64,000 bases of DNA, taken from Haloferax sp. Q22 (lineage in GTDB: Archaea > Halobacteriota > Halobacteria > Halobacteriales > Haloferacaceae). Positions 29,290-34,313 of the stretch are shown here, in pieces (within the stretch, counting starts at the first letter, position 1; each line of letters starts with the position of its first letter). The notes below the pieces were generated by a model. That model saw only the letters and a list, made by a program, of their open reading frames with translations, made no database searches and was not told the DNA's origin. The DNA lies in contig NZ_LOEP01000033.1 of the NCBI RefSeq assembly GCF_001482285.1, positions 62,001 through 126,000 of the forward strand, in the 5' to 3' direction. The translations under genes and the position numbers were made by a program.

Positions 29290-29399
29290 ACGCTCCCCAC
29301 GTCAGACTCGGTATAGTGTTTAGGGGCGTCGTGTCTGCGAATCAGAGGGTTCGTTCCGCCCGACCGAAGCGTTTTGCGTCCGGCCCACCACGATACCGT

Positions 29400-30362
29400 A
29401 TGAACCTCTTTCGGAGCGTCAAAGCGGTCGCGGACGCTTCGGCGACCGGCTCCGGCACCATCGACTGGGACGCCGTCGCCGAGGCCGCAAAAGCCGCGAC
29501 CGACCCCAGTTCGCTCGACCTCTCGGAGGCGGAGCGAGCGGGGTACGCCGCGGACGTTCGCGACGCGCGCGACCGCCTTTCGACCGTCGCCGAGGTGGAG
29601 TTCGACGTGCCCGAAGTCGTCGAAGTCCAGAACCGACACCACTGGATAGACGCGAACGTGGCGACGTTCCGCCGGGTGATGCTCCCGTTCGAGGAACACG
29701 GCCCCGCGCTCCTTCCCGGTGTCACCCGCGCCGTCAACACCGGTTCGTTCGCCTTCGTCCTCTCGTTCCTCGGGAACAACGTCCTCGGGCAGTACGACCC
29801 GCTGCTCCTCGCCGAGGGCGACGACGACCACGGCCTGTACTTCGTCCACCCGAACATCCGCCGGGTCGCCGACAGCCTCGACGTGGACTACCCGCGGTTC
29901 CGCCGCTGGATTGCCTTCCACGAGGTGTCCCACGCCGCGGAGTTCGGCGCGGCCCCGTGGCTCTCGACGCACCTCGAATCGCGGATGCAACGCGGCGTCG
30001 ACGCGCTCGTCGAAGGCGACCTCGACCGCGACGCGTTCCGCGAACTCGACACGGCGATGACCGCCGTCGAGGGCTACGCGGAACTGCTGATGGACCGGGC
30101 GTTCGACGACGACTACGAGGACCTCCGCCGAAAGCTCGACGAGCGACGACAGGGCGGCGGCCCAGTCGCGAAGCTCGCGCGGCGGCTCCTCGGACTCGGA
30201 CTTAAGCGCCGGCAGTACGAACGCGGCGCTCGGTTCTTCGAACACGTCGCTGACGAACGCGGCGTCGCGGCCGCTTCGCGGGTGTGGGATCATCCGGAGA
30301 ACTTACCGACCGACGCGGAATTGGACGCACCCGAGCGATGGATCGCGCGGGTGTCGCCCTGA
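29400..30362 (+). CDS. Zinc-dependent metalloprotease, DUF2342 (zincin) family
   Basis: A 320-residue protein of the DUF2342 zincin-like group, seen in actinobacteria and haloarchaea. The zinc site is HEVSH within RRWIAFHEVSHAAEFGAAPW, and a likely third ligand lies in AMTAVEGYAELLMDRAF. The N-terminal part contains LPFEEHG and an FVLSFLGNNVLGQYDPLLLA segment. Substrate unknown; some relatives are annotated as linked to F420 metabolism, which I cannot confirm here. ATG 29400 is preceded at about 27-30 bases by GCGTTTTGCG. Its stop codon overlaps the proposed structured RNA region. Confidence 0.88.
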   Translation: MNLFRSVKAVADASATGSGTIDWDAVAEAAKAATDPSSLDLSEAERAGYAADVRDARDRLSTVAEVEFDVPEVVEVQNRHHWIDANVATFRRVMLPFEEHGPALLPGVTRAVNTGSFAFVLSFLGNNVLGQYDPLLLAEGDDDHGLYFVHPNIRRVADSLDVDYPRFRRWIAFHEVSHAAEFGAAPWLSTHLESRMQRGVDALVEGDLDRDAFRELDTAMTAVEGYAELLMDRAFDDDYEDLRRKLDERRQGGGPVAKLARRLLGLGLKRRQYERGARFFEHVADERGVAAASRVWDHPENLPTDAELDAPERWIARVSP

Positions 30363-30543
30363 GGAGACTGCAACTCCATCTTAACATGCGTACCCGATGC
30401 CCGAGCCCTGCTCGGGTCGCGTACGTACCTTGGGTAGGACGCTGTGTTGCATCGAAGGCCCAATTCCGGTGCCCCACAGCGCTCTCCGGTGAATAACCAG
30501 GTCATTGCCCCTGCCCTGGTTACCGGCGAAAGCCCCTCCTCAG
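30359..30543 (-). ncRNA. Candidate structured non-coding RNA (strand uncertain)
   Basis: The gene-free gap contains an RNA-like fold. An 8-bp closing helix (30359-30366 with 30536-30543) encloses three hairpins. One is 30389-30425, with inner stem 30400-30406/30410-30416. One is 30440-30446 with 30475-30481. One is 30486-30490/30522-30526 continuing into 30495-30501/30515-30521. The minus strand is favoured because TATA-like stretches lie at 30551-30560 and 30590-30599, upstream on that strand. It does not show the conserved cores I know for 7S RNA or RNase P RNA. Transcription is unproven. Confidence 0.5.
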
Positions 30544-30550
30544 AGGACGG

Positions 30551-30600
30551 GTATATACTCTGCGATTCGTTCCCATACGGTTAATATGGAATATATATCT
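30551..30600 (-). promoter_or_regulatory. AT-rich promoter-like region beside the candidate RNA
   Basis: Contains GTATATAC and AATATATATC within 50 bases, sharply AT-rich against the surroundings. Read on the minus strand, either could serve as a TATA box for the structured region. On the plus strand no gene follows. The small membrane protein gene ends at 30630 on the other side. Confidence 0.45.
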
Positions 30601-30629: not shown

Positions 30630-30842
30630 CTAGCGTCGGTTCACCGCGGTGAACTCCTGGGCCCAGCGGCCCAGATACCACGTGAGGAGCCCGCCGACGG
30701 CCAGGCCGGCGAGGAGCGCGATTGCGCCCTGAACGAGCGTCGCTCCGGCTTGGACAGCGACGAGTCCGGCCGACGCGCCGACCAACAGGACGAATCCGAT
30801 TTTGATTCGATTGTTGGCGAGCCGCGTCTCCTCGTCGCTCAT
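30630..30842 (-). CDS. Small two-helix membrane protein
   Basis: A 70-residue protein, MSDEETRLANNRIKIGFVLL, with two hydrophobic helices (about 15-31 and 35-55) and a final NRR. It looks like a haloarchaeal integral membrane protein of unknown function. The shorter start at 30842 is chosen over 30857 because it follows the family-like acidic opening. Nothing in the context suggests a role. Confidence 0.7.
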   Translation of the reverse strand: MSDEETRLANNRIKIGFVLLVGASAGLVAVQAGATLVQGAIALLAGLAVGGLLTWYLGRWAQEFTAVNRR

Positions 30843-30957
30843 GCTGGAACCGACCATCGTTCCTCCGAAATCACGCCGTTGGGCGGTTTTCGCGACCGCC
30901 CGCGGAGTCTATCGTCCATAGCTGTCCATTGGGTTGGGAGGGTTTGAAACCGATGTC

Positions 30958-31536: not shown

Positions 31537-31658
31537 GGTTGGGCGTACCACGCGGGGGAGAAAGAGCGTGACGGTCGGGGGAATTCGTGTACGCGAACCA
31601 CCACGGGACTCACACCCCACCGACGGCTATTTGGCCGCGCCTCACCGACGGTTCGGAC

Positions 31659-34313
31659 GTGAACCTTCGCGGTCCGCTCGTCGAGGTCGGCGAGCCGCGT
31701 GACGTCGAAACGAAGTACGGCGAGCGCTCGCTGGCGGAGGTGACGCTCCGCCCCGAGCGCGGGACCGGAGAGCCAGTCACCGTCACCCTCTGGGGGAAGT
31801 GGACCCACGCCGCCGAACACGCCGAGCCGGGCATGGATATCCTCGTCACCGACGCCGAGGAGTCCGAGTACCGCGGCGAGACGACGTACTCGACCGGCTC
31901 CGAGTCGTTCGTCGTCGTCGAGCCCGATTTCCTCGTCGACGTGACCGACATCCGCTCGTGGGTGCAGTGCTCGCGGATGTACTACCTGAACAAGCTCTCG
32001 GGCATCCCGCTGAACTACCCGGTGGTGAAAGGGACCATCGTCCACGACGTGTTCGGCGACCTCCTCCGCGGCCGCGACCTCGACTCGTCCATCGACGAGC
32101 GCATCGACGAGCGCGGCCTCGAACTCGGCCTGCTCGGCCGCGAGGTCGACGAAGTCGCAGACGAGGTGCGCCGCAACGCCGCCGCCATCGAAGGCTGGCT
32201 CTCGCAGGGCGTCCTCACGGACGAAGACGAGTGGCGCTCGGAGTACACCCTCATCTCGCCGACGTTCGGCATCAAGGGCCGCGCCGACGCCCTCCGGCGG
32301 GGGTCGCCCGTCGAACTCAAGACCGGCAAGAACCTCAACCGCGACCCGCGGTTCCAGGACAAGATTCAGGCCGCCTCCTACGCGCTCATCCTCGAAGAGC
32401 GGGGCGTGCCGGTCGACACGGGGACGCTCCTCTACACGAAGAACACGACGCTCGACCGCACCGAGGAATCCGGCGATCTCTCGCCTGCGAAGGACTTCTC
32501 CATCGGTCGCGGGCTCCTCGAATTCGTCGTCCGCACCCGCAACGAAATCGCGGCGATGGAACACGACGCGTCGGTGCCGACCGGCTACGAGGTGAACTCG
32601 AAGTGCGAGTACTGCTTCGAGAAGGACACCTGCATGGTCGTCTCTGGCAGACTCGACCAGGAGTCGAAAGCCGGCGCAATCGGGCAGCCGGTCCCCGAGG
32701 ACGAACGCGACTACTTCGACCGGTTCTACCGCGCCGTCGAAGAAGAGCGCCGGGCGGTCCACAACGAGTACCGAAAGCTCTGGGACCAGAGCGCCGAGGA
32801 GCGCGCCGACGACGACCGGGCGCTCATCGGTCTCGAACCCCTCGGCCAGACTGAGCGCCCCGACGGCACGTGGGAACTCCGAGCCAAACAGACCGACGAC
32901 GCGGTGTCGAAACTCCGCGCCGGCGACGTGGCGCTCGCCAGCGACGGCCACCCCGTCGAGGGGCACGCCGAACTCGCGCGCATCGTCGAACTCGGCGACG
33001 AGATCGTCGTCACAACCGACGAACCCGTGCCGCTCCGCCGTCTCGACGTGTACCCCTCCGAACTCACCGTCGACCGCTTGCTCACCGCGCTCCACGACGC
33101 GGTGCTCAAAGGCTCGCCCGGCCGGAAAGACGTGCTGTTCGGCCGCCGCGACCCCGACTTTTCGGACCGCTCTGCGGGCCGCACGTTCATCGACAACAAC
33201 GACGCGCAGGACGACGCGGTGCGCCTCGCGGTCGACGCCGACGACCTCGCGCTCATCCACGGGCCGCCGGGGACGGGCAAGACCTACACCATCGCCCGGA
33301 CCATCCGCGCGCTCGTCGAGGACGGCAACCGCGTCCTGCTTTCGGCCTTCACGAACCGCGCGGTCGACAACGCGCTGGAGGCCCTGCGCGACCAAGGGTT
33401 CGAAGATATCGTCCGCGTCGGCACCGAATCGGGCGTCCGCGAGGACATGCAGGACGTGCGTCTCTCACGGAGCGGCGACCCGAACGCGCTCGCCGCCGCC
33501 CTCCACGACGCGCCGGTAGTCGCCGCGACCACCGCCTCCTGCGGGTCGCGCGTGATGCGCGAGCAGTCGTTCGACGTGGCGCTCGTCGACGAGGCGTCCC
33601 AGATAACCGAACCGGGGACGCTCGCCGCCGTCAATCTCGCCGACCGGTTCGTCCTCGTCGGCGACCACAAACAGCTTCCGCCGGTCGTCCGCGCCGAAAA
33701 CGACCTCCAGAAATCGCTGTTCCAGCGACTCATCGAGACGTACCCCGACGCCTCGGTCATGCTCGACCGCCAGTACCGCATGTCCCAGCGGATTCAGGCC
33801 TTTGCCTCCAAGGAGTTCTACGACGGTGCGCTCCGCCCGGCGACGGGGGCCGTCGCCGCCCAACATCTCCGCGACCTCGGCGTCGACACCGCGGACCTCC
33901 CCGCCGAACTCGCGGACCAAGTCGCCTTCGTCGACCCCGACGGCCGGCGCGTCGGCAACACGAACCCCGTCGAAGCCGACCGCGTGGCCGAAGTCGTCGC
34001 CGCCTATGAGGCCGCCGGTGTCGACATCGACGACATCGGCGTCATCGCCCCGTTCCGGGCGCAGGTCGCCGAAATCTCCCGCCGAACCGACGCGACCGTG
34101 GACACGGTCGACCGGTTCCAGGGCTCCTCGAAGGAGGTCATCGTCGTCTCCTTCGTCGCCACCGGCGAGTTAGACGGCCCGCTGTTCGAGGACCACCGTC
34201 GTATCAACGTCGCCCTCACGCGGGCGAAGAAGGCGCTGTGTCTCGTCGGCGACGCCGACGCGCTCGAATCCGACCCGTTCTACGACCGGATGCTCGCGTG
34301 GGCGCGGCGGTAG
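31659..34313 (+). CDS. Dna2-like nuclease-helicase
   Basis: An 884-residue DNA repair or replication protein. The N-terminus (about 1-85) looks like an OB-fold (LVEVGEPRDVETKYGERSLA). A PD-(D/E)XK nuclease of the Cas4/Dna2 type follows, with its first iron-sulfur Cys in WVQCSRMYYL, catalytic GRADAL...VELKTGK, and the other three cysteines in CEYCFEKDTCMV. A superfamily 1 helicase completes it: IHGPPGTGKTYTI, LVDEASQITEPGTLA, LVGDHKQLPPVV, LDRQYRMSQRI and NVALTRAKKALCLVGD. GTG 31659 is chosen because a CTATTTGG element lies about 30 bases upstream; GTG 31587 is also possible. Confidence 0.9.
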   Translation: MNLRGPLVEVGEPRDVETKYGERSLAEVTLRPERGTGEPVTVTLWGKWTHAAEHAEPGMDILVTDAEESEYRGETTYSTGSESFVVVEPDFLVDVTDIRSWVQCSRMYYLNKLSGIPLNYPVVKGTIVHDVFGDLLRGRDLDSSIDERIDERGLELGLLGREVDEVADEVRRNAAAIEGWLSQGVLTDEDEWRSEYTLISPTFGIKGRADALRRGSPVELKTGKNLNRDPRFQDKIQAASYALILEERGVPVDTGTLLYTKNTTLDRTEESGDLSPAKDFSIGRGLLEFVVRTRNEIAAMEHDASVPTGYEVNSKCEYCFEKDTCMVVSGRLDQESKAGAIGQPVPEDERDYFDRFYRAVEEERRAVHNEYRKLWDQSAEERADDDRALIGLEPLGQTERPDGTWELRAKQTDDAVSKLRAGDVALASDGHPVEGHAELARIVELGDEIVVTTDEPVPLRRLDVYPSELTVDRLLTALHDAVLKGSPGRKDVLFGRRDPDFSDRSAGRTFIDNNDAQDDAVRLAVDADDLALIHGPPGTGKTYTIARTIRALVEDGNRVLLSAFTNRAVDNALEALRDQGFEDIVRVGTESGVREDMQDVRLSRSGDPNALAAALHDAPVVAATTASCGSRVMREQSFDVALVDEASQITEPGTLAAVNLADRFVLVGDHKQLPPVVRAENDLQKSLFQRLIETYPDASVMLDRQYRMSQRIQAFASKEFYDGALRPATGAVAAQHLRDLGVDTADLPAELADQVAFVDPDGRRVGNTNPVEADRVAEVVAAYEAAGVDIDDIGVIAPFRAQVAEISRRTDATVDTVDRFQGSSKEVIVVSFVATGELDGPLFEDHRRINVALTRAKKALCLVGDADALESDPFYDRMLAWARR

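Follow-up and report, generated by a model that had tools for sequence, protein, structure and literature searches.

What lies between the zincin-like metallopeptidase gene and the 75-aa ORF that converge in this part of the Haloferax sp. Q22 genome? The two genes, on the plus and minus strands respectively, flank the interval at the same place in all 12 genomes that carry the element described here. A preliminary description of the window (the whole 64-kb stretch of DNA analysed, haloarchaeal in content) proposed that positions 30359-30543 form a multi-helix RNA with helices hard to explain by chance. The interval folds far better than its dinucleotide shuffles on both strands (-82.8 versus -57.7 kcal/mol, z -6.15, on the plus strand; -86.9 versus -66.8 kcal/mol, z -4.45, on the minus strand). 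Compensatory changes in relatives, named at the outset as the observation that would support the RNA, do occur.

These changes were read from an alignment of the 12 carrier sequences in the minus sense, in which variable stems lie between invariant blocks. RNAalifold, given no preset structure, returned 56 pairs, 13 of them with changes on both sides. In the four-hairpin structure of Table 1, 97.5% of 529 cells pair, a value that falls to 30-39% when partners are slid by 1-3 columns. Two-sided changes with pairing retained occur in 14 of its 45 pairs (35 cells); none of 500 shuffles equals this, a figure that is not a probability because the sequences are related, and on one measure, further pair types, the value of the structure is reached in 36 of the 500. 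Most of the covariation signal comes from hairpin 2 (10/14 pairs). Because hairpins 1 and 4 are almost constant, covariation offers little test of their pairs; the GGAG/CTCC helix of hairpin 4 is unchanged in 11 of 12 sequences, with a single G-U in the twelfth.

The strand had been left open. Read in the minus sense, the aligned helices contain 38 G-U and 5 A-C cells, and the figures swap in the plus sense, from which it follows that the RNA under selection is the minus-strand one; a plus-strand RNA is ruled out by its 38 A-C versus 5 G-U cells. Judged by these comparisons, the fold is real and conserved, and its sense is minus. The original picture of a domain with three internal hairpins closed by eight base pairs survives in part. 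Its three inner hairpins exist, as does the exact 8-bp repeat (CTGAGGAG/CTCCTCAG, 30359-30366 with 30536-30543), but the closing helix is not conserved, with between 2 and 8 of its 8 pairs kept per sequence (73 of 96 cells), and we rejected it. Its second arm belongs to hairpin 4.

Table 1. Features of the RNA gene and its surroundings (window positions)
Feature	Position	Strand	Remarks
Zincin-like metallopeptidase	29316..30362	+	PF10103, TIGR03883; convergent neighbour, last codons overlap the RNA
Structured ncRNA gene, ~175 nt	about 30355..30528	-	Placed by covariation, G-U/A-C cells, fixed TATA distance and zincin synonymous changes
Hairpin 4	30361..30380	-	GA-U-GGAG / CUCC-UC; invariant loop UUGCAGU; overlaps zincin stop codon
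Hairpin 3	30389..30425	-	Two stacked stems, asymmetric internal loop
Linker CCUACCCAAGGU	30427..30438	-	Invariant from CUACCCAAGGU onward
Hairpin 2	30440..30481	-	Variable stem, two-sided changes in 10/14 pairs; invariant loop UUGGGC
Hairpin 1	30486..30526	-	CCGGU-AACCAGG stem; 13-nt loop GCAGGGGCAAYGA, one row off by one base; 4-nt variable bulge
5' arm (minus sense) of 8-bp helix	30536..30543	.	Between TATA box and inferred start; not conserved
TATA-like box TATATA	30552..30557	-	First T exactly 30 nt before G of GCCGG, 12/12
Upstream element GAATCGCAG	30560..30568	-	Varied in 2/12 rows
75-aa ORF, upstream neighbour	30630..30857	-	No Pfam or NCBIfam match

Several further contacts can be drawn between these parts. 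CGCC at the start of the RNA can pair with GGCG at its end in all 12 sequences (one U-G), and the linker could pair with UUGGG of hairpin 2, without covariation. The possible long-range contacts GCAAY/GUUGC (5 pairs) and UUGGG/CCCAA are compatible with the rows and show no two-sided change.

An AT-rich, promoter-like block on the minus strand had been pointed out beside the interval; it is present, and it behaves like a promoter. TATATA or TATTTA keeps its distance to GCCGG in 12/12 sequences though the spacer bases vary, and the combination of the TATA box with GAATCGCAG is unique in the genome. A spacing of 30 bases fits an archaeal TATA box. By its position and constancy, the block looks like the RNA's own promoter, and its distance places the start at ~30528. 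Synonymous changes in the zincin gene resume at the third-last codon, which puts the 3' border near 30355. The gene is therefore slightly shifted from the borders first given, and spans about 30355-30528, so that the 3' end of the RNA would fall within the final codons of the zincin gene. Ahead of the TATA box, at 30560-30580, most carriers have two conserved blocks, one AACGTGTG-like and the other GAATCGCAG, which suggests a regulator site or an unusual BRE. A near-perfect 12-bp hairpin with a 2-base loop (30328-30353, CACCCGAGCGAT/ATCGCGCGGGTG) lies in the last zincin codons, right past the inferred 3' end; it may have arisen by chance from the coding sequence, or it may signal the 3' end.

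Does the RNA belong to a known class? The preliminary description had seen neither a 7S RNA nor an RNase P core in it, rightly: RNase P RNA (RF00373) and SRP RNA (RF01857) have no match in the window, and the genome's own genes for both lie on other contigs. Like the Haloferax RNA, these two are structured and multi-helix. A search of the 64-kb window against Rfam 15, another check put forward initially, returned three tRNAs only at gathering score; no family matches the RNA, and the best sub-threshold match in its interval reaches 15.3 bits where the cut-off is 70 (E 0.16). The same genome, given as 99.9% complete, yielded no 23S rRNA match with RF02540, probably owing to missing contigs. Elsewhere in the window, a 908-aa ORF at 31587-34313 has the Pfam domains Dna2, AAA_11 and AAA_12 and a weak NCBIfam Cas4 match, and is a possible Dna2-type nuclease-helicase.

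Guide RNAs can be compared by their boxes. The consensus of box C is RUGAUGA and that of box D is CUGA; RTGATGA occurs in none of the 12 rows. Archaeal H/ACA guide sRNAs resemble the Haloferax RNA in being small and stable, with one to three hairpins. According to PMC7991803, their ACA box comes directly 3' of a hairpin and is separated from the modified site by 14-16 nt, and a K-turn or K-loop sits 5-6 nt above the pocket. Unlike them, the Haloferax RNA has no Rfam match and no shared ACA box (ACA stands at no position common to the 12 rows, and at none after hairpin 1, 3 or 4). By eye, no K-turn (tandem G-A pairs with a 3-nt bulge) was seen in the 12-row alignment. The intergenic sRNAs of haloarchaea are a nearer comparison: the 88 of H. 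mediterranei are, from what the available portion of PMC5852579 gives, likewise stand-alone, intergenic and of comparable length. They are known from homology and RNA-seq, the Haloferax RNA from covariation; the starting point of their list was homology with sRNAs from four other species, and no entry in that portion could be placed at the RNA locus. Nor did the literature, so far as its text was accessible, yield a description of the RNA. Orphan structured RNA motifs from comparative genomics share its definition by covariation and its variable stems with fixed loops; unlike them, it lies outside Rfam 15 and was found in a single archaeal genus. What the gene does appear to have, judged from the alignment, is a fold conserved by compensatory changes together with a promoter of its own.

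How far does it extend? The gene is single copy in its genome, and 12 of the 15 genus genomes have it, with an intact hairpin-1 motif, at one and the same locus. When 98 relatives were searched at the DNA level, 13 had a match, all within the genus: the 12 true carriers, and one (G014) whose match consists of 24 bases of the zincin end only. The 23-base hairpin-1 motif, searched with up to 3 mismatches in 170 family genomes, matched with zero mismatches in the 12 carriers only; all other matches had three, and a reversed control matched at a similar rate. A covariance model run on the same number of family genomes produced 12 strong matches, all with E at or below 3.6e-36, plus two that were weak (E 0.02 and 0.15); deeper scoring of 12 and then 30 more genomes added weak matches only (best E 0.02). 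At 18 zincin loci without the RNA (3 from the genus, 15 others), with filters off, nothing scored better than E 0.08, and at the 15 that belong to other genera the RNA was not seen. When 84,980 species genomes were scanned with a gapped pattern built from the invariant blocks, the eight records that matched were all Haloferax (marisrubri, gibbonsii, marinum, larsenii, elongans, mucosum, prahovense and profundi). Large-scale scans score a limited number of candidates in each genome and could pass over a strongly diverged homolog. The weak matches at L027, L028, L037, L038, L039, L116 and L117 were aligned and taken as chance; that at L116 lies within an argininosuccinate-synthase-like ORF, and that at L038 within an ABC-ATPase-like frame. 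Among the genomes examined, these searches indicate that the RNA is restricted to Haloferax, at a single locus.

In the three genus genomes without the RNA (G001, G003 and G014), the zincin stop is followed by some bases and then the end of the next gene, and covariance searches of these genomes gave weak matches only (E 0.15 to 0.34). A tree of zincin genes from 20 of 30 loci, five of them from other genera, places the three non-carriers in one clade beside a gibbonsii-like group, with the other carriers across the outgroup; support is 0.975 and 0.855 around the root and 0.494 for one inner branch. On this tree, the simplest account is that the genus gained the RNA once, at its base, and lost it once. 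Since three related genomes lack it, the RNA is dispensable there.

Could the element act in cis on a coding sequence? It may be a riboswitch-like leader of a short ORF antisense to the zincin gene, with ATG GAG TTG CAG at hairpin 4 as the start of a small protein. The ATG is in place, followed by an open frame of 29 to 101 codons, in 12/12 sequences, and riboswitches typically combine variable stems with fixed loops. However, the ORF length differs between rows (29, 88 or 101), and the frame runs wobble-to-wobble against the zincin gene, which by itself keeps it open. Codons of the ORF outside the zincin gene have no synonymous change in the 12 rows, where the sole change (CCT to CTT, in L003) alters the amino acid, and zincin synonymous variation near that end is not clearly below that elsewhere. 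Directly downstream on the minus strand there is no same-strand gene, and the absence of any frames other than those antisense to zincin makes a riboswitch less likely; taken together, we consider a leader improbable. An sRNA that controls mRNAs in trans by base pairing, with short seeds located in its loops or in the linker, deserves more credit, and we would still call it unlikely. Exposed invariant segments are present, and haloarchaea have many sRNAs, as the accessible portion of PMC5852579 reports, but just two of the 15 genus genomes contain, once each and outside the RNA gene, a sequence exactly complementary to the 13-nt loop of hairpin 1. By exact match, this loop (the one segment searched) is thus no conserved antisense guide.

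The position between convergent genes and the ability to fold on both strands also fit a 3'-end or barrier element of the zincin and 75-aa genes, acting as DNA or in their mRNAs. Such an element would not account for a promoter-like box at a fixed distance or for the G-U strand bias, and it is cleanly absent from three genomes in which both genes still stand side by side, some bases apart; we give it little weight. Least credible of all is a MITE-like remnant of a mobile element or virus with ends CTGAGGAG/CTCCTCAG, an idea that draws on the inverted repeat at both ends and the presence or absence of the element among genomes. Against it stand the single copy at a fixed locus, a terminal repeat that is not conserved while the helices covary, and the lack of any match to the RNA in plasmids, phages and viral contigs.

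We therefore consider it probable that the locus holds a free-standing minus-strand RNA gene with its own TATA promoter, whose four-hairpin product works in trans as a regulator or scaffold and is probably bound by protein. Transcription from this promoter would begin at about 30528 and yield an RNA of ~175 nt, the ends of which are probably brought together by CGCC/GGCG. The RNA would work through its shape and its loops, given that GCAGGGGCAAYGA, UUGGGC, UUGCAGU and the linker CUACCCAAGGU are almost fixed while the stems vary. Fixed loops on variable stems point to recognition of shape and loops, most simply by a protein, and one or more proteins most likely bind the RNA, which would serve a regulatory or scaffold role in trans and be useful, not essential. 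Transcription, the exact ends, protein binding and the mode of action are steps that we infer from the sequence comparisons. A bolder and doubtful extension would make it an archaeal RNA machine of a new class: the 13-nt loop would touch the loop of hairpin 4 (GCAAY/GUUGC), UUGGG would meet CCCAA, either in the linker or on a second molecule, and the resulting tertiary or dimeric fold, lost in one Haloferax clade, would bind a specific protein or ligand.

With three related genomes lacking the RNA, work confined to a non-carrying species would miss it. To our knowledge, archaea have few RNAs of complex architecture whose function is unknown. This one occupies a fixed locus in haloarchaea that can be cultured, and nature provides both carriers and non-carriers for comparison.
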